Source of the DNA: Bdellovibrio bacteriovorus
GTDB taxonomy: Bacteria; Bdellovibrionota; Bdellovibrionia; Bdellovibrionales; Bdellovibrionaceae
Direction of reading: 5' to 3'
Assembly (NCBI RefSeq): GCF_001592735.1
Contig: NZ_LUKE01000003.1
Span: 372,001-436,000 of the forward strand
DNA length: 64,000 nt
The position numbers were made by a program, and so were the translations under genes. The notes beneath the pieces were generated by a model that did no database searches, had not been told where the DNA came from, and saw only the letters and a list, made by a program, of their open reading frames with translations. Shown one piece after another: positions 8,361-22,096 of the stretch; position 1 is the stretch's first letter, and every line of letters starts with the position of its first letter.

Positions 8361-8831
8361 TTAAACTCCCGAAGTTGAAAAAACGATCAGGAAGCGATCG
8401 GGAGTGGCCTCAATTGCAAACAGATTCTCCTCATCTCTAAAAGAAAAGACCCCATTTTCGGAGTGAAATTCGGCAAAAATCGCTTGAGCTGCGGCCCCGT
8501 GAACCTCAAAAGAGGCTTTATTCGGCGAAATCTGTGAAAACTGGGTTTTATGAATGTTGATCGCACATTGGTAAGCATCTTGCCCGCGGCTGTTGCAGAC
8601 GAAATTGAGAACTCTTTTTTCAGTGCTAAGTGCTTTCCCCGGCCCCATGTTGGATGGTTTTTCAGGAACATTCATCAACTCATAAAGGCGTTTTGGCGTC
8701 CCATCGACCACCCCGTCACTGGTATGAGACGCAAGGCTGATCAACATAAACGGCCCCACCATGCGACCTGAGGTTTTAGCCATAAGGGTTTGAGAAGTAA
8801 GAAGAATTAAAAGCACACTTAAGAGTTTCAT
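8361..8831 (-). CDS. Small secreted protein of unknown function
   Basis: From ATG 8831, eight bases after an AGGA site, the product is 156 aa with a signal peptide (MKLLSVLLILLTSQTLMA). The mature part contains a cysteine pair (NFVCNSRG and AYQCAINIH) and mixed beta-type sequence. An in-frame ATG at 8849 lies inside the sequence that carries the ribosome-binding site and is less likely. No family recognised. Confidence 0.6.
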   Translation of the reverse strand: MKLLSVLLILLTSQTLMAKTSGRMVGPFMLISLASHTSDGVVDGTPKRLYELMNVPEKPSNMGPGKALSTEKRVLNFVCNSRGQDAYQCAINIHKTQFSQISPNKASFEVHGAAAQAIFAEFHSENGVFSFRDEENLFAIEATPDRFLIVFSTSGV

Positions 8832-9012
8832 ACGCACAGTCCTTTGCATTTATTAAGCATAGCCCTGTGTCTAAAGTTTATTCAACCGCATTCCCAAACC
8901 TGTCATGTTAGGCCTATTACAGTCTTTTGACAAAATGACCCGTATTGAGACCGTTTTTGCCTGTATTTACAGTTACTTATGGTCACGAATCAGAGTGAAA
9001 CATCGTAAAAAA

Positions 9013-9419: not shown

Positions 9420-9620
9420 ATGGGAATTCTTAAATCCATTGGTGAATTTTTAGTTGGCAAAGACCCTGACATTTTTGATGAAAAGGGCAACGTCTCGCAC
9501 AAACTTCCAAAGAAAAAATGGGAAGCTTGGCACAATCGCACAAAAGTAGATCCCACTTACAATTGGCGCAACCACACCGGCATCACCGGGGCTGCGAACC
9601 AAAAGAAAAAGCCTAATTAA
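9420..9620 (+). CDS. Small conserved-looking hypothetical protein
   Basis: The 66-aa product MGILKSIGEFLVGKDPDIFD... is basic at its C-terminus and has no signal peptide. An AGGAG site lies 12 bases upstream and a strong terminator follows within one base of the stop codon, supporting a real gene. The tail WEAWHNRTKVDPTYNWRNHTG is rich in aromatic residues. Function unknown. Confidence 0.65.
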   Translation: MGILKSIGEFLVGKDPDIFDEKGNVSHKLPKKKWEAWHNRTKVDPTYNWRNHTGITGAANQKKKPN

Positions 9621-9648
9621 AAAAAGGTCCCAAGCGGGACCTTTTTTT
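9621..9648 (+). terminator. Intrinsic terminator after the 66-aa protein gene
   Basis: GGTCCC and GGGACC pair around an AAGC loop, extended by A5/T7 arms, and end in a run of seven T. It could act in both directions. Confidence 0.9.
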
Positions 9649-9810
9649 ATTTCTGTTTCATCGATTTTAAAATCAGTATGGTCAGCGTTTCTGATCATTA
9701 TTCGGTCAGGAATCTAGGTTTGCAACGCCAGACTTCGTCACCTCCATGAAGCAAAGTTACTTTCTAGGTCATGAAAACTAACCTTCCCTAGTTAAATTTA
9801 AAGAGAGGCA

Positions 9811-9826
9811 TGGCATCCTGCTTGCA
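9811..9826 (+). promoter_or_regulatory. Sigma-54 promoter
   Basis: TGGCATCCTGCTTGCA matches the sigma-54 consensus TGGCAC-N5-TTGCW with one difference, and GG and GC are exactly 10 bases apart. The expected start of transcription is about 9837, 67 nt before the ATG at 9904. No housekeeping promoter is obvious here. The activator is unknown. Confidence 0.65.
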
Positions 9827-9903
9827 CAGTGACACCTCGAATTAATCTGTTTTGTCGATTGAGGGCCACGGTGCCCCTACATGCGCCGATTGGAAGGGTC
9901 ATT

Positions 9904-10590
9904 ATGAAAACAAACTTTCTTATCTACGTGATGATAGCGTTTGCCCAAACTTCGGCCCAAGCTCAGCTCATGGATCTTCCCAATCCTTTTGATGATGCCG
10001 CTAGCACACCTACCTATGAAGTTGAAGCACCTCTATCTATTGGTTCGGAGGTGGTCTTTATTCGAAATAGAAAATACGATATCGGTCTCGTCGTTGATTT
10101 CGCAGGAGATCGAGTTTGGCTAAGATCTTTAAACTCCAACACGATCCATGAAGAATCCCTAGATCGTGTTTCTGTCAAGACCGCTCAGTGTTCATCTCTT
10201 GGTTACTGTCCTAGCGACAGAGTGTTAAGCCGCTACAAAGGCATAGAATCCTCCGGTGGCGCACAGCTAGGAGAAAGGTATTCAACGGGGATTGTTCTTG
10301 GACTTTATAAGCCCAATCTGGTTGCGATAAAAGATAACGAAGATGGTCGAATTGATATTAAAGAACAGAACTCAGTTTACGGCAAAGATGTTCGTTGTGA
10401 CGCATATTCCTCGATTTGTGTTGGCGATAAGATCAACTCGAGCTACGTAAGCGGTCGCCCATACGATTATCCGGGCACCGTCTCCGGGGTCTACTCCAAT
10501 GGCGCAATCTTTATCAAAAACAACGGCCGTGAAATACAGGTATTCCTTGATCGCAACTCGTTCAAATTCAAGCAGAGCTCATCGCAATAG
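9904..10590 (+). CDS. Secreted beta-rich repeat protein of unknown function
   Basis: The 228-aa product has a signal peptide (MKTNFLIYVMIAFAQTSAQA) after a GAAGGG site. The mature part contains three related units of about 60 residues: a G-x-V-xx-(V/I) strand pattern (IGLVVDFAGDRVWL; TGIVLGLYKPNLVAI; PGTVSGVYSNGAIFI). The last two are each preceded by a short cysteine loop (CSSLGYCPSDRVLS; CDAYSSICVGDKINS). This looks like SH3-like beta-barrel repeats with one disulfide each. Expression probably depends on sigma-54. The frame is open upstream to 9829 without support. Confidence 0.7.
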   Translation: MKTNFLIYVMIAFAQTSAQAQLMDLPNPFDDAASTPTYEVEAPLSIGSEVVFIRNRKYDIGLVVDFAGDRVWLRSLNSNTIHEESLDRVSVKTAQCSSLGYCPSDRVLSRYKGIESSGGAQLGERYSTGIVLGLYKPNLVAIKDNEDGRIDIKEQNSVYGKDVRCDAYSSICVGDKINSSYVSGRPYDYPGTVSGVYSNGAIFIKNNGREIQVFLDRNSFKFKQSSSQ

Positions 10591-10818
10591 CTTTGCGCCA
10601 GTCTGATTCTGAGCACTACGTGTATCGGTGTTTATTCCTTATTTAGAAATCCAGCGACATTTTAAACCACCGGGTAATTAGCCCCTCACACCTCGCCAAC
10701 CTCGTGCAATTTGTCTCACGCCCATCGTAATAACCAACCTAGCAAACTTGAGCGACTAAAACCCGTGGCCTCGACTTTGCTTACCTTCCTTGGTTACCCC
10801 GCAACCAAAGGGAAATGA
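10591..10818. other. Intergenic region with an RBS hairpin before recQ
   Basis: This 228-bp gap has no gene. Its only visible structure is CCTTGGTT (10788-10795), which can pair with AACCAAAGG (10803-10811, one bulged A). The right arm covers the AAAGGG ribosome-binding site of the helicase gene. Confidence 0.35.
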
Positions 10819-12312
10819 ATGCGCAATTTAAATGGGTCCACTTCACCACTCCGCTCTGACTCTCCGCTTGTTCAAAAATGTCTACAGGAAGTTTTTGAAC
10901 TTAAATCCCTGCGCGAGGGGCAGGCCGAAGTGATCGATTCGGTTTTTCAAGGAAAACATACGCTCGCGGTCATGCCGACGGGGGCTGGTAAATCTTTGTG
11001 CTTTCAATTGCCCGCGATGGTACTTCCGGGCGTGACCATTGTGATTTCACCTTTGATCGCGCTGATGAAAGATCAAAAAGCCAAACTGTCGGCGTTAGAA
11101 ATCAGCACTTTAGAACTGAATAGCTTTGTCAGAGCTAAAGACCGCGATAAAGAGCGCCAAGAATTTAAAAATGGGAATACCGAGTTTATCTATGTAACGC
11201 CCGAAAAATTCGTTTCCGAAGATTTTTTATTATCAATGAAGAATATTGAGATTGATTTACTGGTGATCGATGAAGCTCACTGCATCAGCCAGTGGGGTCA
11301 TGATTTTAGGCCTGCCTACTTAAAGATTCATGAAAGCTGGAAACAGTTAAAGAAGCCTCAGATTTTAGCCCTCACCGCCACAGCCACCCAGGAAGTGATT
11401 GAAGACATCAAAGAGCAACTGTGCCTGCCGGAGCTGAATATTTTTGCCCAAAACATTTTTCGCGAGAACCTTTTTTATGAAGCTATTGTCTTAGAAAAAG
11501 AAGAAGACAAAATACCGGCATTAGAAAATATTTTAAAACTTAAAACCGGTTCAGGCATTATATATTGCGCCACGATCAAGCAAGCCGAAGCCGTTTATGA
11601 AAAACTTCACGCGGAAAATTTCCCGGTCTATATTTATCACGGAAAAATGAAGCTAGATGATCGCGTCGATCAAAGAACCGCGTTTATGGCCTCAAAAGAC
11701 GGCATCATGGTGGCCACCAATGCATTTGGAATGGGTATTGATAAACCCGACACTCGCTTGGTGGTGCATTTTAACTTCCCCGGATCCTTGGAATCTTATT
11801 ACCAGGAGTCCGGTCGCGCGGGGAGAGATCGCGAACCCGCCCAGTGCATTTTGCTGTATCTTAAAAAAGACAAAGCCACGCAAAGCTTTTTTAATGCTCG
11901 TAAGTATCCCACCTTAGAGCAGCTTCAATCACTTTACAGCGCGCTGAAGGCCATTAAAAACTCTGAAGAATTAAAGTCTTTGCTTCAAAGCCTTTCGATC
12001 CCGAAAACAAAACTGGCGGTTCTTATGGACCTGTTGAAAAAAGAGGGCGTCTTAGGCGGAAAGGGCCCTAAATTATCATTGATGAAAAAAGACCTGACAA
12101 CAGAGGATCTTAAGTCCCTTTTTAACTCTTACGAAGCCAAGAGAATGAAAGACGCCGACAAATTAAAGAAAATGATCCTTTACGCCCAAACGGCGTTATG
12201 TCGCTGGAATTATATCCTGAACTATTTCGGTGAAACAGAGCTGACGACTGTTTGCGGAAATTGCGATAATTGCGTGAAAGGATCTTCTGAACTTAAAGAA
12301 GTTTACTCATGA
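10819..12312 (+). CDS. RecQ-family ATP-dependent DNA helicase
   Basis: The 497-aa product has the RecQ superfamily-2 motifs in order: motif 0 FELKSLREGQ, Walker A MPTGAGKSLCFQLPA, DEAHCISQWGHDFRPAY (motif II and the aromatic-rich loop), TATATQEV (motif III), and ATNAFGMGIDKPDTRLVVHFNFPGS with YYQESGRAGRD (motifs V and VI). A zinc-binding end is present (CRWNYILNYFGE ... CGNCDNC). It stops there, so the winged-helix and HRDC domains of full-length RecQ (about 600 aa) are absent. It is a short RecQ, probably for DNA repair. Start at ATG 10819, 6 bases after AAAGGG. Confidence 0.92.
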   Translation: MRNLNGSTSPLRSDSPLVQKCLQEVFELKSLREGQAEVIDSVFQGKHTLAVMPTGAGKSLCFQLPAMVLPGVTIVISPLIALMKDQKAKLSALEISTLELNSFVRAKDRDKERQEFKNGNTEFIYVTPEKFVSEDFLLSMKNIEIDLLVIDEAHCISQWGHDFRPAYLKIHESWKQLKKPQILALTATATQEVIEDIKEQLCLPELNIFAQNIFRENLFYEAIVLEKEEDKIPALENILKLKTGSGIIYCATIKQAEAVYEKLHAENFPVYIYHGKMKLDDRVDQRTAFMASKDGIMVATNAFGMGIDKPDTRLVVHFNFPGSLESYYQESGRAGRDREPAQCILLYLKKDKATQSFFNARKYPTLEQLQSLYSALKAIKNSEELKSLLQSLSIPKTKLAVLMDLLKKEGVLGGKGPKLSLMKKDLTTEDLKSLFNSYEAKRMKDADKLKKMILYAQTALCRWNYILNYFGETELTTVCGNCDNCVKGSSELKEVYS

Positions 12313-12403
12313 ACCGTACTCATTTTTGCGAATATTTTTTTTTAAAATTCTTGAGAACCAGAATTTACTTTAGAAACAAACTGATTTTCCGAAGTAGAAT
12401 ACT

Positions 12404-15400
12404 ATGGGAAAATTCTGGATCGTTCTTATCATCTTGGCAGTCTTCAAATCCGCTCTGGCAGGCCCCGCTACGCTCACCTATCAAGGCCGAATCATAGATA
12501 CATCCGGCAGACCTCTGGAAAACTCAAATATTTCTTTTGAATTTGCCATCACAAATCCTTCGGGAACCTGCATATTATTTAAAGAACAGCTCAATGGTGT
12601 GGATTTAAGAAATTCCAACGGCGTCTTTGATACTCCCATCGGGGCCGGCACCAAAAGTTTTCCGCCAGACCCTAGCGTGAACCTGGTTGATGTTTTCAGT
12701 AACTCTGCAAGCCTTCAATGTGAAGGCGGCTCAACTTATAACCCGGTCGCCACCGATGGTCGCTTACTTCGTGTCCAGTTTTACGATGGAAAAGGCTGGA
12801 AACTTATTTCACCAGATAACATCATTCGCAGTGTCCCTTACGCAAATCAAGCTTCAAATAGTATGAAGCTGGGTAATAAGCTTGCTGAGGATTTTGTTTT
12901 AAAGACAAACATCCCCACGTGCGCTACGGGTTATTTATTAACCTCCACCACCGCCGGAGTTCTGACCTGCGCGGCGGATACCGGAGGCTCCAGTGGAAGT
13001 GTGAACTCTATTTCTGGTACGGGTCCCATCACTGTTGCCGAAACCGCGCCAAACTCGGGCATCTATCAAGTATCAGCGGCAATTGGAACAACGGCTTCCA
13101 CTCTTGTCGCCGGGAACGATTCTCGCATCTTGAATTCCCTGCAGATCGGCGCCACCGCCGGTGGCGGTCTTGCTGGCACCTACCCCAATCCTTCAATTGC
13201 CGACAACGCCATCACGTCCTCAAAATTAGCGGCGAACTCAGTCACTTCCGACAAGATACTTAATGGCTCCATCTCGCTCGCCGATTTAGCGCCCGGCACA
13301 GATGAGGGCCAAGTCTTTCGCTATAACGGAACGACCTGGAGTTATGCAAAATTAAACTTTGCAGATTTAACAAATGCCACTGGAAACTCCCCATGGCCTT
13401 CTTCTTCCTGCGCTGCCAATCAGTTTATCACCTGGGTGTCGGTGAGTGATGGCTTTTCATGTACCTCTTTAAACTCATCGATGATTACTTCGGCTTTAGG
13501 ATTTACTCCCTTAACAAACGCGCGAACTCTTACGGTGGGCGCGGGATTAAAGGCCGATGGCACATTGGGAGCAACAGTTGATCTTTCGGCAAATCGCACT
13601 TTAGCGATTGATGTCGGAACCGGAGCCAATCAGATTCCTCAGTTAGATGCTTTGGGGAAAATTCCAAATTCGGTTTTACCTAGTGATGCCACACTGTGGA
13701 GCTCCGATTCCGGAAATGTGTATCGATCTACGGGTAAAGTCGGAATCGGAACAACGACCCCCGCAAAAAATTTAGATATCCAAGGAAGCGGTGGAACCGG
13801 AGTGATTATTGGGGACTCTACTGGCGCGGCCGGCCTCTCCGTAAGTGGAGTGACATGGACCGGGGTCGGACTTGAACGCCAAGGCAAACGCCGCTGGCAA
13901 ATATATTCGAACATAAATGATGCAAATGATGGTACCAATGTCGGGACAGATTTTATCATCGGACGATTTAGCGATTCAGGCGCCTGGATTTCAACCCCAT
14001 TGATGATTCAACGCTCTTCCGGCAATGTGGGGATTGGCACTATCACCCCCTCGACCAAAGTTGAAGTCATCGCCGCCGACAACGCAACCGCTGTGCGCGC
14101 GCGAACCAGCGCCAATTTAAACAGTGAATCTGTTTTTTATAGCGTTCAAGATCGCGGAAGATTTGGCTATGATGGCGTTAGAAATTCCGTCGTCATCGAT
14201 GATAAAAACTCCGCCGGCTCAACAACAACAAAACACATCACCATGGATACAGCTGGCAGTGAACGCCTGAGAATCACCAGCGCGGGAGAGGTCGGCATTG
14301 GTACCACAACTCCGTGGGGAAATTTTGAGGTGGTAGCGCCCGATGCCGTGGTGAGAGCTACCGGAAGCGGGGGAAAACCCAGCGCCATTGCGTCTGCCAG
14401 AGACTTTGGCGGTACTTCCATTGCTGCGGGTGACTTGTTAGGGGGTCTTTATTTTCAAGACAAAAATACGTCAGATACAGGTTTTTTAAATAATATCGCG
14501 ACCATCTTAGGCTCTATTGATGCCACCGGTGGAACAACTCGTCACAAAGGACGAATTACTTTCAACACCAGTGACGGCACTAACGTCACGGAAAGACTGC
14601 GAATTGATTCTGGCGGCAATGTGGGGATCGGTACGACCTCCCCTACTTACAAACTTGATGTTAATGGTTCGGCGAACTTTGCAAGTTTGTATATTAATGG
14701 TGTTTTATTTAATGGAGCTTCCAACAGTAATGGAGTGAGCGCGGGCGGTGGGCAGGTTACATCTGTCACGCAAACCTCAACAGATGCAGCATCCGGTGCT
14801 CGATCTGCCATCGTCGTTCAAAATAATGGAACCGGTGGCGCCAATGAGTATAACTTCATCGCAAAAAATGCGGCGGGAACTACGACTTCTTATATACGTC
14901 AAGACGGGACCGCTTGGTTTGGTGGACCCATCACGACCACCGGGTCTTTAAACAGTGCGACTTTGTATACGCCATTTATTTATGGCGGAAATACCTCGTC
15001 CCAAAATCTTACTTTAGAATCTACTTCGCACGCCACCAAAGGATCTATAGTCCTGCAACCCAATGGCGGCAAGGTCGGTATTGGTACGACCACCACTCCG
15101 GACTACAACCTCACCGTCACCACCACGCAGTCGGCACCGCTTAATGGTTTGGCTTTAGGGTTTGCCGTGGATAGAAAACCTGCATCGGGTACTGCCGCTA
15201 ACGGAATAAGTTCGGGGCTCGTCTTCAGAGCCGCAAATGACGCTGGAGCACTTAAAGGTTCGTCGGATATTCACGGTATTCTGACAAATGTCACCGACGG
15301 CAGTGAAACTGGGGATCTTGTCATACGCACAAGAAAAAGCGGGACCCTTAATGAGGTCTTAAGAATCACATCAGATGGAAATTTGGGCGTACATACCTCC

Positions 15401-17479
15401 ACTCCCAAAGCAAAGCTTGATGTTTCCGGCGCAATGGCTATTCGAGGTCGTCTTACGTCAGGCACAACTGCGGTCAGCGATGAGGTTTTACCCACGCAAG
15501 GCGCGTACATCGGCTGGAATGAAAATAACGGAAGTGGACGAACAAATTTCATGAACCACCCAGGTGTTGGAGGCGGAGGATTTGAATGGAATATGTTTGA
15601 TGGCACTGGCGCCTACACCGGCACGCCCATGATGATTAGCAACCTGGGTTTTGTCGGGATCGGCACCAGTACGCCGACAGAACAACTCACTGTATCCGCC
15701 ACCACACCCCGTTTCCGATTAGAAGACAACAATAGCACCTACGATTCGAACTCATTTACGGGGACGATCAAGTGGACCGACTCTTCGAACAATATTGCTT
15801 ACAGCTTGGGCGATAACGATACGGCTTCGAAAACGTTCTCAATCAGTAACAATTCTGGAACCTCCGCGATCACTCAAATAGCGATGAATAACTCACCGGT
15901 CCTGACCGTGCTTGATTCCGGAAATGTCGGGATCGGCACCACCAACCCGGGATATAGTTTGGATATCGTTAAGCCTGATACGGGAACGACCGTTAGAGTT
16001 ATTAATTCTGATTCAACTACGGCGCACTATCCGGGATTTTCAGCTTACAACTATCAAGGGAGCTCAGGTGGCGGCTTTCCGTTTTTGGAATTCCAAAACT
16101 TAGGTGGAACAAGTGCGTCGCCCGCAGCTGTCGCCTCAGGCTCCACCGCCGGAGGCATAGGATTTAAAGCTCACAACGGCACCGCCGTTGTTGACACCGG
16201 CAGGATTTATTCGATTGTGGAGTCGGGATTTGGCAGTTCAAATAGAAGTAGCAGTTTGACGTTCTTAACTGCAGGAACGAGCTCCCTCACCGAAAAAATG
16301 CGAATCACGTCCGGTGGCAATGTCGGCATCGGCACAACCAGCCCCACCTCAAGACTTGAAGTTAAATCTAACTCGGACGCTAGTATTGCGGCGGCTGTCT
16401 TTAATGAAAACGCGACCGCCAATGCTGTGGCCGCAAGCTCTGTTTATTCAGATGGCGCAGGCTTTAGCATGGAAGCCTACAGCACCGCATCCACCGCAAC
16501 CTATTCCGGAGGCAGCTCCTTAGCTGATGCCATCGTTTTAAGAACTCACACCTCACGACCTCCCGCAAGAATGATCGCCGGCACCAGCACAAACATTCCA
16601 TTTCACCTCATGACTGCGAACACCAATCGGCTTACGATTGATGGAACCGGCAATGTAGGCATCGGCACCGCTTCTCCCGGATATGCTCTGCAAGTGAGCT
16701 CTGCAACCAATGGCGTGGGATCCATTGTTGATGTCGCCAAATTCACCCAGGCTGGTGGGGCTCCTTATGATGGTGCGCGAATTTTGTTGGGTGCTGGCGG
16801 CGTCAATGTTCAGTCGGCTATTTCGGGCGATGTCGTTTCGGTAGGAAACACCCGCCTTCAGTTTTGGACTTCCGGCTCTGGAACTTTAGCGGAACGAATG
16901 CGCATTGATACTTTAGGAAGAGTCGGCATCGGCACAACCAGCCCCACCTATACGCTAGATGTGGCGGGTGATGTGAATGCCTCTGGATGTTTGCGGTCTA
17001 GTGCGGGAACAGCCAGCGGAACTTGCGCCTCTGATGAGAGACTAAAAACAGATATTCAAAAATTTGATTTAGGTCTGGACGCGCTATTAGGTATCACCCC
17101 TCACCGCTTTAAATATAACGGCCTAGGAGGAATCACGCCGAGTGGAAAACCCGAGCTTGGCGTGCTGGCCCAGGAAGTTGAAAAAACGGCGCCCGAACTT
17201 ATTGTCAGCAAGGAAGTGAAATTATATCCTGAAGACAGTCACAAGACTCAGATTAAACAGGTGAACTACACGGCGTTTACTTATGTGCTCATAAATTCAG
17301 TGAAGGAGCTTTACCACCGCTGGATGCAAGACAGCCAAGATATTCATCGCGAAATGGCTTCTTTAAAATCAGATAATGCCGAGCTTAAAAAAGAAAATAG
17401 CGAAATTAAGGCCTATCTTTGCGCCAAGGATCCAGGGGCGTCCTTCTGCCGCGGTTCCGTCGTGACGGGAAAAAACTGA
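12404..17479 (+). CDS. Giant secreted fibre protein with VGIGT repeats and S74 chaperone domain (MAT-like adhesin)
   Basis: The 1691-aa product has a signal peptide (MGKFWIVLIILAVFKSALA), an N-terminal domain starting LTYQGRIIDTSGRPLENSNIS, and then 11 copies of a motif like GNVGIGTTSPTYKLDV at residues about 446, 542, 630, 740, 891, 994, 1084, 1175, 1307, 1418 and 1507. Regions of 70-130 residues between the copies differ in sequence. At about 1540 comes CASDERLKTDI, then ALLGITPHRFKYNG and LGVLAQEVEKTAPELI, the peptidase S74 intramolecular chaperone of phage tail fibres and endosialidase; Ser1543 is the likely self-cleavage residue. The end is a coiled coil. The layout suggests a trimeric fibre such as the prey-contact fibres of Bdellovibrio (mosaic adhesive trimers). 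Its last 67 bp overlap the convergent TIGR02147 gene. Confidence 0.88.
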   Translation: MGKFWIVLIILAVFKSALAGPATLTYQGRIIDTSGRPLENSNISFEFAITNPSGTCILFKEQLNGVDLRNSNGVFDTPIGAGTKSFPPDPSVNLVDVFSNSASLQCEGGSTYNPVATDGRLLRVQFYDGKGWKLISPDNIIRSVPYANQASNSMKLGNKLAEDFVLKTNIPTCATGYLLTSTTAGVLTCAADTGGSSGSVNSISGTGPITVAETAPNSGIYQVSAAIGTTASTLVAGNDSRILNSLQIGATAGGGLAGTYPNPSIADNAITSSKLAANSVTSDKILNGSISLADLAPGTDEGQVFRYNGTTWSYAKLNFADLTNATGNSPWPSSSCAANQFITWVSVSDGFSCTSLNSSMITSALGFTPLTNARTLTVGAGLKADGTLGATVDLSANRTLAIDVGTGANQIPQLDALGKIPNSVLPSDATLWSSDSGNVYRSTGKVGIGTTTPAKNLDIQGSGGTGVIIGDSTGAAGLSVSGVTWTGVGLERQGKRRWQIYSNINDANDGTNVGTDFIIGRFSDSGAWISTPLMIQRSSGNVGIGTITPSTKVEVIAADNATAVRARTSANLNSESVFYSVQDRGRFGYDGVRNSVVIDDKNSAGSTTTKHITMDTAGSERLRITSAGEVGIGTTTPWGNFEVVAPDAVVRATGSGGKPSAIASARDFGGTSIAAGDLLGGLYFQDKNTSDTGFLNNIATILGSIDATGGTTRHKGRITFNTSDGTNVTERLRIDSGGNVGIGTTSPTYKLDVNGSANFASLYINGVLFNGASNSNGVSAGGGQVTSVTQTSTDAASGARSAIVVQNNGTGGANEYNFIAKNAAGTTTSYIRQDGTAWFGGPITTTGSLNSATLYTPFIYGGNTSSQNLTLESTSHATKGSIVLQPNGGKVGIGTTTTPDYNLTVTTTQSAPLNGLALGFAVDRKPASGTAANGISSGLVFRAANDAGALKGSSDIHGILTNVTDGSETGDLVIRTRKSGTLNEVLRITSDGNLGVHTSTPKAKLDVSGAMAIRGRLTSGTTAVSDEVLPTQGAYIGWNENNGSGRTNFMNHPGVGGGGFEWNMFDGTGAYTGTPMMISNLGFVGIGTSTPTEQLTVSATTPRFRLEDNNSTYDSNSFTGTIKWTDSSNNIAYSLGDNDTASKTFSISNNSGTSAITQIAMNNSPVLTVLDSGNVGIGTTNPGYSLDIVKPDTGTTVRVINSDSTTAHYPGFSAYNYQGSSGGGFPFLEFQNLGGTSASPAAVASGSTAGGIGFKAHNGTAVVDTGRIYSIVESGFGSSNRSSSLTFLTAGTSSLTEKMRITSGGNVGIGTTSPTSRLEVKSNSDASIAAAVFNENATANAVAASSVYSDGAGFSMEAYSTASTATYSGGSSLADAIVLRTHTSRPPARMIAGTSTNIPFHLMTANTNRLTIDGTGNVGIGTASPGYALQVSSATNGVGSIVDVAKFTQAGGAPYDGARILLGAGGVNVQSAISGDVVSVGNTRLQFWTSGSGTLAERMRIDTLGRVGIGTTSPTYTLDVAGDVNASGCLRSSAGTASGTCASDERLKTDIQKFDLGLDALLGITPHRFKYNGLGGITPSGKPELGVLAQEVEKTAPELIVSKEVKLYPEDSHKTQIKQVNYTAFTYVLINSVKELYHRWMQDSQDIHREMASLKSDNAELKKENSEIKAYLCAKDPGASFCRGSVVTGKN

Positions 17480-18234
17480 ACGGCTAGCTGATAAACATCA
17501 TCTGGCGAAGTGGTCGCACCTTCTTCGATACACTCCTTAAGAAAATCATTAATTTTGATCTTCAGTCTTAAGGCGTTTTCTTTGGAACACGTAAAGGCCC
17601 CCGATACAATGTGGCGGCGCTCTAACGATCGTTCATCAACGGCATGATCCATCAGGTTTCGGGCATAATTCACCACGGACCGATGGTACTTGCGTACGGA
17701 TTGTTTGGATGATTTTGATTGGAACTCAAAATACTTTTCAGAGGCCTTCAAAATTCCGCCAACCTCGATGACAAAACCTTTTTTATGCAAAATATCCAAG
17801 ACGGATTGAATAAAAAAGCGGGGTAATTTTAAGCGCGAAGAAATAAAATCCAGAGACCCGTCATACCCATTAAGACGAGTCACTAAAAGGATCGCCATAG
17901 GTTCCCATCGCGAAATCACATCAAAGTCTTTTAACGATACTAAATTCCAACCGTGAACTCGCACCACCGAAGACTTAGCGCCGGGATTGTAGCCATGAAT
18001 TTTAAAGGTATTTACGTAAATCTCAGAGCGACTTTCGTCGTCAATATCAAGAATCTCACAAAGATCTTCGACCATATCAAATGGAACAGGCCTAGTCCCT
18101 TTGAGGATATAAGACAAATACACATGACTGACGTTGAGCTTACGCGCCATCCACCGGACCGAAAGACGCGGAAAATCTTTCTTCTTTTTCTCGAGGGCTC
18201 TTTGAAAAATACCTGGGGGAAGTTCGATCGACAT
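17413..18234 (-). CDS. TIGR02147 family regulatory protein
   Basis: The product (273 aa from ATG 18234) has an N-terminal helix-turn-helix like the XRE group (LSVRWMARKLNVSHVYLSYILKGTRPVPFDMVEDLCEIL) followed by a DUF4423-type region and the typical family ending KIKINDFLKECIEE...DDVYQLAVQFFPVT. TIGR02147 proteins are expanded in Fibrobacter and Bdellovibrio relatives; their targets are mostly unknown. The 3' end overlaps the fibre gene by 67 bp in antisense, so transcripts of the two genes would be complementary at their ends. The reading frame is open upstream to 18279, but the family N-terminus favours MSIELPPGIF. Confidence 0.85.
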   Translation of the reverse strand: MSIELPPGIFQRALEKKKKDFPRLSVRWMARKLNVSHVYLSYILKGTRPVPFDMVEDLCEILDIDDESRSEIYVNTFKIHGYNPGAKSSVVRVHGWNLVSLKDFDVISRWEPMAILLVTRLNGYDGSLDFISSRLKLPRFFIQSVLDILHKKGFVIEVGGILKASEKYFEFQSKSSKQSVRKYHRSVVNYARNLMDHAVDERSLERRHIVSGAFTCSKENALRLKIKINDFLKECIEEGATTSPDDVYQLAVQFFPVTTEPRQKDAPGSLAQR

Positions 18235-18321
18235 AAGCAAACCATACCAAAGATAGGCAGACGTGACCACGACAGCCACAGCTTACGAAAAAAAGTAAAT
18301 GCGCCCCAGCACCCAATTCAG

Positions 18322-18339
18322 ATTCTGGCTATCCAGAAT
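18322..18339. promoter_or_regulatory. Perfect inverted repeat between two divergent regulators
   Basis: ATTCTGG and CCAGAAT form a perfect 7-bp inverted repeat around CTAT, with half-site centres 11 bp apart. It lies between the TIGR02147 gene and the small HTH gene, whose starts are 186 bp apart. This is typical of a dimeric helix-turn-helix operator. Which protein binds it cannot be told from sequence. Confidence 0.55.
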
Positions 18340-18420
18340 GTTCTCAAAAAGATACCAAAACCCAATTATAAATATCTAATTCTATTGGTAGCTCTCCTTT
18401 TGAGCCTTAGGATGTGAGGC

Positions 18421-18693
18421 ATGGCAACGGTCAAAGATGACTTTATTTTGGCAACCCGATTAAAAAAACTGTGTATTGAAAAAGGCATCTCTATCAAAGA
18501 GCTCAGTTTAGAGACCGAGGTCCCTTTAAAGACCATTTATGGCTGGATCGCGGGAAGTCATCCTCGCAATCTAAGAGACGTAAAAAAGGTGGCAGAAGCC
18601 CTTGGGGTCACCATTGAAAGCCTCTGTTTTGCTTCTCCGTCCAAGACAAAATCCCCTACGGCAAAAAAAGATTCCTTTCGCGATGAAGAGTGA
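18421..18693 (+). CDS. Small XRE-type helix-turn-helix protein
   Basis: The 90-aa product has one HTH domain: FILATRLKKLCIEKGISIKELSLETEVPLKTIYGWIAGSHPRNLRDVKKVAEALGVTIESLCF, with SIKELSLETEVPLKTIYGW as the helix-turn-helix. A short charged tail follows. This is the Cro/CI (XRE) family. An AGGA and a GAGG precede the ATG. It is divergent from the TIGR02147 regulator, with an inverted repeat between them. Confidence 0.85.
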   Translation: MATVKDDFILATRLKKLCIEKGISIKELSLETEVPLKTIYGWIAGSHPRNLRDVKKVAEALGVTIESLCFASPSKTKSPTAKKDSFRDEE

Positions 18694-18778
18694 CGTTATT
18701 AAGTAAAAAATATCTTCCCGGATCGCTCTCTGGAATTCCCCTCGCCTTTTTGCTACAACGGACCGCTACGAGGCGAGA

Positions 18779-19789
18779 ATGTTTAAAGTCTTACTTATTT
18801 TATCCGTATTTAGTTTCGTCCCTGGATTTGCGCTAGCCACAAAGCTAGCTGATACTTATCGCTTTGAGACCCAAAAAATTCTGCGTGACCTTGATAAGCT
18901 AGGAATAGATAAAATAGCGTGTATTTCAAAAGCGGAGAAGAAAAATTGCTTTCATCCTCTGGAACTTTTGAAGATCGCGGATCAGGTAAAGTGGGTGGAA
19001 CTTGAATCTTTCCATAAAGCGGCTGGAACACCTCGCGGAGGCGCCTTTTACTCCCCTATCGAAAACACAATTTATTTGAATAAATCTGTGCCCCACATTC
19101 GACAATTCATTGGTTACGTCGGTCTGCATGAAATTTTAGGCTTGGTCGGGGCGACAGAAACAGATTTTGGAATCAGCCTAGCGGCCTACCGAGCGATTCG
19201 TCTTTTTGACCCCTCGTCCAAAAACCTTCAGCCCACTTGGCGATGGGACATTATAAAAACCGACCTGATGACGACTCCTGAAATTTCAACACTTTCTTAT
19301 TCCGACCCCGAATATAATAAACTTCGCAGAAGCACTGAAGGGGGTGGCGTTTTCGTAGGTGGTGGTGGTGGCGACACCCGAAGCTTTCAGCTGCGTGTTG
19401 AAGTTTTTGAACATATGAGTAAATATGTACCCATTATGATTTTCGTCGATATGCACTTTGCCAATGTGAGTATTGAAGTCATAAACTCCAACAAAAAAGA
19501 GATTTACTATCACACGGTTGGTTCTTTACTCAATCGCATCTTTGTCCCTGAGTCATTATTAAATCTTCGATCCCTTCGAGATCCCCGCGTGAGTTTTGCG
19601 GTGGAGGACATCGCCTGGTTCCTAGCGAGCACATATCCCCAGTTTACAAACATTCCCTATAAAACAACAATGGACGGCCGTGTGGAACCCGTAAGCCTTC
19701 GCGGACTTCATCCTAAGGCGATAAAACAGATCTGGTGTGAAAAGAACAATTTCAGTTCTCCGATCCGGGCCTGCGATCTAGGTTACTGA
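18779..19789 (+). CDS. Secreted protein of unknown function with a glycine-rich loop
   Basis: The 336-aa product has a signal peptide (MFKVLLILSVFSFVPGFALA). At residues 115-122 it has GLHEILGL, which recalls an H-E metal-binding start, but there is no second histidine at the expected spacing, so protease activity is not supported. A glycine-rich stretch (STEGGGVFVGGGGGD) lies at about 186-199. Two cysteine pairs (about 48 and 57; two near the C-terminus) suggest an oxidised protein. It overlaps the convergent glnD-like gene by 12 bp. Arms CTCGCC and GGCGAG bracket its ribosome-binding site with a long loop. Confidence 0.65.
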   Translation: MFKVLLILSVFSFVPGFALATKLADTYRFETQKILRDLDKLGIDKIACISKAEKKNCFHPLELLKIADQVKWVELESFHKAAGTPRGGAFYSPIENTIYLNKSVPHIRQFIGYVGLHEILGLVGATETDFGISLAAYRAIRLFDPSSKNLQPTWRWDIIKTDLMTTPEISTLSYSDPEYNKLRRSTEGGGVFVGGGGGDTRSFQLRVEVFEHMSKYVPIMIFVDMHFANVSIEVINSNKKEIYYHTVGSLLNRIFVPESLLNLRSLRDPRVSFAVEDIAWFLASTYPQFTNIPYKTTMDGRVEPVSLRGLHPKAIKQIWCEKNNFSSPIRACDLGY

Positions 19790-22096
19790 AAATTTATCTT
19801 TAAGACTCTTTAAAACATCCTGCGCTGTTTTTTCGGCCTGCGGTTTCACGATAAAAATATCATCCACTTGCCGACCCCACGTATGCACGCGGGCCGCCCG
19901 GATGCTCACACCCAAATCACTTAGGGATTTCGCGGCTGACGCTAAAAGTCCCGACTGATCCACCGCCTTAAAGCTGTAAACCCATTCGTTTTCATCGGCA
20001 CTCATCAGTTGGATGTCGTCAAACTTCACATCCGGGACGGATTTGGTTGGGAACGAACTGGCTGCAAGAATTTTTTCTAATTGCGCGGCATTTCGAGTCG
20101 TTGAAACTTGGAACCAGTCGTAAACGCCGACTTTCGGCAACGTGTGAATGGAGGCATGCTTAATACCTAAGCCCAATGAAAACAATTGCCCCACGTAATC
20201 ACTTAAAAGTCCCTGACGGTCTTTTTTATGATGAAAGCGAATCCACACATCCCCTTTTTTAGGTGCATACACCCAAGGTTTTAACGAGTCTTCACTGGTT
20301 TCGGTTTTTTTTAAATCACTGACTAAATCTTCAATGCCGATGTTTTCTAATAACACCGGGCCCAGTTCTTCCATGACTTCGGCAGACATTTTTAGTTTTT
20401 TCTTTGCGAGCGTCTTTTCAAAATCAAAAAAGTTTTGGGCTTTTTTAGATTCTAAGCTGACTACCAGGTCTTTTAATAACTTGGCCTTCCATTCGTTCCA
20501 CGCCTCAGGGTTGGTCGCGCGAATATCAATGGCCGTAAATAATGCCAGACGATAAAGCCTAGCGCCTTCAGCGCCCTTATTGCGCAAATCCTGCCACACC
20601 TTCGGGTCTTTGGCATTCTTTCGAAAAGCCGCTTGCGATAGCTCTAAATGGTTTTGCACCATCCACTGCACCTCAGTGATGAAAGCTTTGCTAAAACCAT
20701 AACTTTGAAAATCTCTGGCGACGATTTCAACACCTAGATCGGAATGGTGCTCACTACTCTCAAGACCTTTTGCAAGATCATGATAAAGACAGGACCAAGA
20801 GAGAATCTTCCAATCTTCTTTAGAAAGTTTTTTGTGAAGTGGCTGTAAAGGTCCCAGCTCTTTGGGCTTTTTAAAAATGCGTTTTACTTCGCGACACGCC
20901 TGCATGATGTGCGAATCCGCCGTAAAGCGATGGTACTGGTCATGCTGAACATACCCTACTAAGCGTCCCATCTCAGGCACCAGTTTATCCATGAGGCGTG
21001 ATCTAAAAAAGCTAATGATCGTGCTGTCATCGGCCTTCACATCTAAGGCTTTTTCTAAGATGAGGCCTCTTTTTTTGGCTAAGATTTTTGCTTTGCTGTC
21101 CGGGATGAAAGTGTCGATATTTTCGCGGACTTTCTTTTGCATTAAAACGCTTGAATCATTATGTAACGCAAGCGAAAGATCCTCGAGCTTTTTAAATCTT
21201 TTGTTTTCAATCGCGCGCAGTTCTTTTTCAGAACTTTCTGCGACTTCAACAATCCAGTCTGAATAAAAATGCACGCGCGAAAGACCGCGTTGCAGACTGC
21301 GCATAAAGTCTTTATGTGATTTAAAACCCATCCACTGGCCGATATCAAACTGCACGGCTCCCGTGAGAATGTCACCATAGCCTTCAAGCTGCAGTTTATG
21401 GCGCAGGTTTAAGAAGTAATGACGATAGTAATTTAAAACATTTAAAGCATGACCTGGATGCATGAATTTTTCCGCAAACAGTTCATAAATCTGTAAGCCC
21501 TGTTCCAGATCACGCAACCCCCCGGGACCGTACTTAATGTTTGGTTCCAGATAATTGGTGATCGAATCATAACGGCCCGCACGGGATTTGCGCTCGTCTT
21601 TAACGGCTTTTAGCAAAATCTGGCGATAGTGTTTTTTACGACTCCAGATCTTTTTTTGCTGTTCATACAGCTTGCGGGCGGAATCCGGTGTTGTGGGACG
21701 CGCTTTTAAGAGCGCTAAAATATCAAAGGCTTGAACATTTTCTGTCCAGTCATCTGGATTTTGTGGCATGCGATAGCGCAGCTTAAGGCCTGCTTCATGC
21801 AGTTCATCACTGCAAGCCTTAACATCAGCCTCACTGCCACAGAATAAAATATCGATATCTGATTTGGGGCTTAACTCTCCCCTCGCCCAAGAGCCCAAGA
21901 TGATCGGCTGGGCCTTTTCCCAATGGGGTGAGGCTTTCACGCGGTCTTCTAAGCGCTGACCTAACCAGTTCGAAAAATTTTCGCTTGAAAAACTAAACAC
22001 CTGACGAACATTTCCATCAGGTGTCATTAAAGGAGGGGTTAAGAGGTCTTGAGCTTGCTGCCACTGTTCAGAAGAAAGAAACGACTTCTGAGCCAT
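19778..22096 (-). CDS. glnD: GlnD-like [protein-PII] uridylyltransferase
   Basis: The 772-aa product has the GlnD domain order. The nucleotidyltransferase motif is GSWARGELSPKSDIDILF at residues 68-85. An HD domain (SWSCLYHDLAKGLESSEHHSDLG) lies at about 420, and two C-terminal ACT domains are marked by RQGLLSDYVGQLFSLGLGIKHASIHT and SGLLASAAKSLSDLGVSIRAARVHTWG. GlnD uridylylates PII proteins in response to glutamine. The protein is shorter than E. coli GlnD (about 890 aa), mainly at the N-terminus. It lies 4 bp downstream of mutS in the same direction, probably in one operon. Confidence 0.85.
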   Translation of the reverse strand: MAQKSFLSSEQWQQAQDLLTPPLMTPDGNVRQVFSFSSENFSNWLGQRLEDRVKASPHWEKAQPIILGSWARGELSPKSDIDILFCGSEADVKACSDELHEAGLKLRYRMPQNPDDWTENVQAFDILALLKARPTTPDSARKLYEQQKKIWSRKKHYRQILLKAVKDERKSRAGRYDSITNYLEPNIKYGPGGLRDLEQGLQIYELFAEKFMHPGHALNVLNYYRHYFLNLRHKLQLEGYGDILTGAVQFDIGQWMGFKSHKDFMRSLQRGLSRVHFYSDWIVEVAESSEKELRAIENKRFKKLEDLSLALHNDSSVLMQKKVRENIDTFIPDSKAKILAKKRGLILEKALDVKADDSTIISFFRSRLMDKLVPEMGRLVGYVQHDQYHRFTADSHIMQACREVKRIFKKPKELGPLQPLHKKLSKEDWKILSWSCLYHDLAKGLESSEHHSDLGVEIVARDFQSYGFSKAFITEVQWMVQNHLELSQAAFRKNAKDPKVWQDLRNKGAEGARLYRLALFTAIDIRATNPEAWNEWKAKLLKDLVVSLESKKAQNFFDFEKTLAKKKLKMSAEVMEELGPVLLENIGIEDLVSDLKKTETSEDSLKPWVYAPKKGDVWIRFHHKKDRQGLLSDYVGQLFSLGLGIKHASIHTLPKVGVYDWFQVSTTRNAAQLEKILAASSFPTKSVPDVKFDDIQLMSADENEWVYSFKAVDQSGLLASAAKSLSDLGVSIRAARVHTWGRQVDDIFIVKPQAEKTAQDVLKSLKDKFSVT

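Follow-up and report, generated by a model that had tools for sequence, protein, structure and literature searches.

A very likely mosaic adhesive trimer fibre of a Bdellovibrio species, with eleven capping-loop repeats and different histories of anchor and tip

The closest described systems to the fibre considered here are the mosaic adhesive trimers (MATs) of Bdellovibrio, homotrimers that are displayed on the predator surface and bind prey glycans (PMC10769870). A beta-rich domain of ~130 aa situated after the signal peptide is a feature of the family, and the capping loops follow the published consensus V-G-G/N-pi-X-X-P-X-X-X-L (PMC10769870). MAT tips were crystallised by Caulton et al. 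2024, giving structures of Bd2133 (8ond), Bd2439 (8ol4), Bd1334 (8oml/8on4) and Bd3182 (8ojn), and 21 MATs were counted in strain HD100 (PMC10769870). Bd3182 has two capping loops 96 residues apart and self-cleaves at S782, an S782A substitution blocking its processing; surface display is published for the family, and glycan binding for Bd2439, whose tip was examined on an O-antigen array (PMC10769870). The MAT family explains how prey of various kinds are recognised and handled by a predatory bacterium, and that answer, with the family itself, the capping-loop motif, S74 autocleavage and prey-glycan binding, was already published in 2024 (PMC10769870), such that the preliminary description of the locus overrated its novelty.

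We have described here a MAT fibre gene in a Bdellovibrio window, the whole stretch of 64,000 nucleotides that was analysed. The gene is an open frame with an ATG start at 12404..17479 on the forward strand, as are all parts of the fibre given below, and the exported product of 1691 aa proposed previously is confirmed as an open frame, with the signal peptide recognised by inspection. The protein begins MGKFWIVLIILAVFKSALA|G, where residues 1–19 (12404..12460) show a K, a hydrophobic core and an A-x-A type cleavage site (A-L-A), and a helix is placed at residues 2–13 by the AlphaFold model of the N-terminal part. Directly after this signal peptide is the conserved beta-rich domain characteristic of MATs (approximately residues 20–189, 12461..12970), and NCBIfam NF053851 (Bdello_MAT_N), described as ‘mosaic adhesive trimer family chimeric fiber protein’, matches residues 10–168 (E 1.5e-65, 219.9 bits against a cut-off of 60). 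The structural model of this domain is rich in beta strands, with the strand pattern of a beta-sandwich (AlphaFold pLDDT 86.8), and Cys56, Cys106, Cys173 and Cys189 are invariant or nearly so in an alignment of 69 proteins. No known fold was matched under E 0.001 by Foldseek, and VIA-align recovered generic Ig-like sandwiches only (best Z 6.3) with no specific relative; this is a weak result that does not constitute evidence of a new fold. A neck or linker (approximately residues 190–445, 12971..13738) has its nearest relatives among MATs of the same genome, and it is followed by a shaft (residues 446–1542, 13739..17029) and an S74 intramolecular chaperone/protease (residues 1543–1691, 17030..17476).

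Membership of the family is well supported by several comparisons. At E <= 0.01 the only PDB matches are the MAT structures 8ond, 8ol4, 8oml/8on4 and 8ojn, and separate parts of the fibre match separate solved MATs, with unit S1 (residues 442–559) corresponding to Bd3182, S8 to Bd2439, S9–S11 to Bd2133 and the last units to Bd1334. The N-terminal domain occurs in 24 copies in the window's own genome, together with 14 S74 domains, and in another genome of the genus has 21 matches; all 30 of the loci located in a collection of named genomes come from records named as Bdellovibrio or as members of its family. The earlier assignment to the genus Bdellovibrio and to this fibre family is thus borne out by both the NCBIfam match and the restriction of PDB matches to Bdellovibrio MATs, and we found no full-length ortholog of the fibre among 23 other genomes of the genus.

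The S74 domain suggested previously, with Ser1543 at its catalytic position, is likewise supported. Pfam Peptidase_S74 matches residues 1543–1599 (E 9e-11, 42.3 bits against a cut-off of 22), and an intact catalytic motif, SDERLK, starts at Ser1543 and includes Lys1548; the S, D and K of SDxxxK are invariant in 68 aligned MAT C-termini. Fold matches of a C-terminal model (residues 1405–1691) include the MyRF ICA domain (7dc3), MAT tips, and the intramolecular chaperones of K1F (3gw6) and T5 (4uw8), placing the fibre in the S74 subgroup of MATs. The model has a pLDDT above 90 across most of the S74 part, and a long C-terminal helix (model residues 218–271, about 1622–1675 of the protein) is predicted with high confidence. 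Confidence in the beta-helix of this monomer model is low (pLDDT 42–52 around model residues 31–90), as expected for an intertwined fold, yet this is no proof of intertwining.

We consider it very likely that the fibre is an S74-subgroup MAT of a Bdellovibrio species, encoded by a composite gene, and sharing with solved MATs their trimeric state, cleavage, surface display and glycan binding, these four properties being proposed by analogy. A plausible working model is that the signal peptide would export the fibre and the conserved N-terminal domain would hold it at the predator surface, with folding as a homotrimer whose long shaft consists of stacked beta-helix units with capping loops between them. 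Scaled from the 550 A of Bd3182, the mature fibre (residues 20–1542) would be about 0.1 micrometre in length. The C-terminal S74 domain would nucleate trimerisation and then cleave itself before Ser1543, and its release could expose the distal face of the beta-helix, in units S9–S11 (residues 1307–1542, 16322..17029), to form the cleft in which a prey surface glycan would bind.

Where such a fibre would act is less certain, as certain MATs function at a different stage or site, for instance in the vesicle within the prey (PMC10769870). It is possible, if rather unlikely, that this is a MAT-built protein acting inside prey, in a vesicle, in sealing of the entry pore or in positioning, with no part in first prey recognition; deposition in the vesicle or bdelloplast is published for several MATs, the S74 member Bd3182 among them (PMC10769870), but the localisation of HD100 MATs varies, and family membership therefore settles no site for the window fibre. 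We also note that deletion of single MATs in HD100 seldom affects predation (PMC10769870), and a role of the window fibre in prey recognition may therefore be hard to show.

The shaft contains eleven capping-loop repeats of the type V-G-I-G-T-x-x-P-x-x-x-L, the motif of PMC10769870, starting at residues 446, 542, 630, 740, 891, 994, 1084, 1175, 1307, 1418 and 1507, with spacings of 96, 88, 110, 151, 103, 90, 91, 132, 111 and 89 residues. The number and the 88–151 residue range of these VGIGT-type repeats agree with the preliminary description, and the pattern [VL]G[VIGN][GH][TSN], found 11 times, has a mean of 0.37 occurrences in composition shuffles. The first spacing of 96 residues equals that of the Bd3182 loops, and unit S1 (446–541, 13739..14026) is homologous along its length to the crystallised Bd3182 tip, both capping loops included (phmmer, 442–559 to 8ojn 23–140, E 1.4e-8); at the level of sequence, these repeats and this match identify the shaft as a capping-loop beta-helix. 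Among 104 MATs from seven genomes, the window fibre has more capping loops than any other by the strict pattern (11, the next having 7). Its length is unexceptional, ranking ninth in the same sample (median 1327 aa, maximum 2758 aa). One relative encodes MATs of 2758 aa (L116, 8283-16559 (-)) and 2503 aa (L121, 2535-10046 (-)), both far longer than those characterised in PMC10769870, and the 2758-aa protein has a tip in common with the window fibre.

The segments between repeats are not uniform copies of one another, and they are not unrelated domains either. When the repeat is kept, they align with one another at about 20–40%; with it removed, four of the ten (S3, S5, S8 and S10) still fit one unit profile derived from other MATs. 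Specific relatives were found for S4 and S9, and none among the sampled MATs for S1, S2, S6 and S7, although S1 matches Bd3182 when its repeat is present. A single profile for all of the segments was rejected, fitting only these four after motif removal. The variability proposed previously holds in that the segments differ and have their nearest relatives in different MATs, which argues against uniform copies, but it does not extend to unrelated domains, since four of ten share a profile. Similarly, the suggested set of ‘tip or shaft domains’ is better described as divergent beta-helix units and one tip than as eleven independent receptor-binding domains.

Pieces of the fibre differ in where their nearest relatives lie. 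The N-terminal domain and neck are nearest to paralogs in the same genome, at up to about 64% identity (45% for the N3 piece of the neck, to a 645-aa paralog), and the shaft units are nearest to many different MATs, mostly at 25–46%, while the S74 domain and S11 are 66% and 75% identical to the 2758-aa MAT of another species (L116). In trees of 69 proteins that have both ends, the fibre groups with five own-genome paralogs by N-terminal domain (support 94) and with MATs of other species by S74 domain (97 and 99, the latter for a group of four). In AU tests the own-genome group fails on the S74 data (delta lnL 288, p 1.3e-9) and the S74 group on the N-terminal data (delta lnL 109, p 2.3e-6), and although these p-values are optimistic because the groups were picked after seeing the trees, the log-likelihood gaps are nevertheless large. 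Clustering of the own-genome labels is seen on the N-domain tree, which needs 4 changes against 10.4 when shuffled (reached in 0/500), and is not seen on the S74 tree (10 against 10.3).

The incongruence of the two trees upholds the mosaic build suggested earlier, and demonstrates that the gene is composite, its anchor evolving together with the other fibres of the genome, and its tip and chaperone being common to fibres of other species. We consider it highly unlikely that the mosaic reflects only a difference in rate, a single gene having been inherited whole with a shaft that changes fast and two ends that change slowly. Conservation of the shaft is indeed much lower than that of either end, but both ends carry phylogenetic signal and conflict, one grouping with an own-genome and the other with an other-species clade, and only the N-domain tree shows own-genome clustering. 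No long stretch of high DNA identity to other MATs indicative of recent gene conversion was seen, the best being 71% over 444 bp at the tip, which suggests that the exchanges are old. The fibre thereby adds to the published account a clear phylogenetic test, in which anchor and tip have different histories.

That the gene is a prophage or phage tail fibre present by chance in the chromosome is exceedingly improbable and largely refuted, for although the shaft has matches among the tail-fibre families of PHROGs (phrog_9942, E 3e-47), and fibres of cyanophage, Pelagibacter phage and Thermus phage were recovered by tblastn, these phage matches are under 60% identical and exclude the N-terminal domain, the fibre has a signal peptide and a MAT N-domain that occurs in 58/61 family genomes and in one of 2.9 million viral contigs, and the PHROGs scan of the neighbours showed a helicase, HTH regulators and unknowns but no genes for a tail or head. 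The sole IMG/VR contig with a MAT N-domain (L190) encodes a 1031-aa MAT beside phage-like genes, and is probably a prophage call that has run into a host fibre gene; Bd2133 is likewise 1031 aa.

The composite MAT gene lies in a species-specific insert of ~10 kb (about 9612..19845, unstranded, with edges good to about 100 bp) together with a 253-aa ORF, a RecQ-like helicase, DUF4423 and XRE genes, and a 336-aa ORF. The flanking DNA is contiguous in relatives, and the flanking genes (8361-8849, or its neighbour in one genome, and a glnD-like gene at 19778-22096) adjoin in ten related genomes, from which the insert is therefore absent. The DNA edges, at about 9612 and 19845 of the window, are separated by only about 65–120 nt in six of these genomes, and in the other four there are different genes at the site, such as an MFS transporter and a 482-aa ORF (L222); the site beside the glnD-like gene is an insertion hot spot. 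No tRNA was found at the insert, and direct repeats of at least 18 bp are mainly within the fibre gene, with none at the insert edges. The RecQ-like helicase (10819-12312) is present in one other genome of the genus at 54%, and scores well against the PADLOC DpdF and PsyrT models, which may be mere helicase homology. The 336-aa (18779-19789) and 253-aa (9829-10590) ORFs are unmatched in Pfam, NCBIfam, PHROGs and PADLOC, and a hydrophobic, signal-like stretch occurs close to the start of each. The presence of a fibre gene in an insert missing from relatives offers a possible route for change in prey repertoire between species.

Convergent to the fibre gene, and overlapping its 3' end by 67 bp, is a regulator with HTH and DUF4423 domains (TIGR02147 family; 17413..18279, reverse strand), with no copy in other genomes of the genus at E 1e-25. 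The window's own genome (G000) has 41 TIGR02147/DUF4423 matches, and a DUF4423 gene lies within 1.5 kb of seven of its 20 MAT loci, where 0.63 are expected by random placement and seven were never reached in 20,000 trials. Replication elsewhere is weak: of 60 MAT regions in six other genomes, five (L106, L110, L111, L116 and L155) have Pfam-confirmed DUF4423 neighbours, against about one expected by our estimate from genome sizes and DUF4423 counts, and two of the six genomes have no such neighbour by local profile. The copy nearest to that of the window (C1:213822-214619) is likewise adjacent to a MAT, and each of the two is convergent to the 3' end of a MAT gene. The MAT-linked DUF4423 genes were also considered as one subfamily, which was unsupported (6 changes against 7.5 when shuffled, 39/500 being as low). 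We think it quite unlikely that MAT genes travel as cassettes and often come with a dedicated TIGR02147/DUF4423 regulator, by which each fibre would be under locus-specific control, and the linkage may instead reflect shared accessory regions. If such control were true, predators could switch which prey-recognition fibres are displayed, and the linkage is interesting, if unproven. Regulators of MAT genes are not discussed in the Caulton text (PMC10769870), and no description of a MAT–DUF4423 pairing was found in the literature searched.

Among known systems, Bd3182 of HD100 (S74 subgroup; PDB 8OJN, 8ONB and 8ONC) has the same succession of signal peptide, N-terminal domain, capping-loop beta-helix and S74 domain with SDxxxK, and its crystallised tip is aligned over by S1 of the fibre, although it is 922 aa long whereas the window fibre has 1691 aa and eleven capping-loop repeats. 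The NS74 MATs Bd2133, Bd1334 and Bd2439 (8OND, 8OML and 8OL4) have beta-helices matched by S8–S11 (E 4e-11 to 1e-8), but end in beta-sandwich or TNF-like tips where the window fibre ends in S74. The ICA domain of myelin regulatory factor (7DC3), the best Foldseek match of the C-terminal model (E 2.3e-6), belongs to an animal membrane transcription factor. The phage S74 fibres, K1F endosialidase (3GW6) and the T5 L-shaped tail fibre (4UW8), have the same intramolecular chaperone by fold search, but the window fibre is without the phage N-terminal virion-binding part, and has a signal peptide and MAT anchor in its place.
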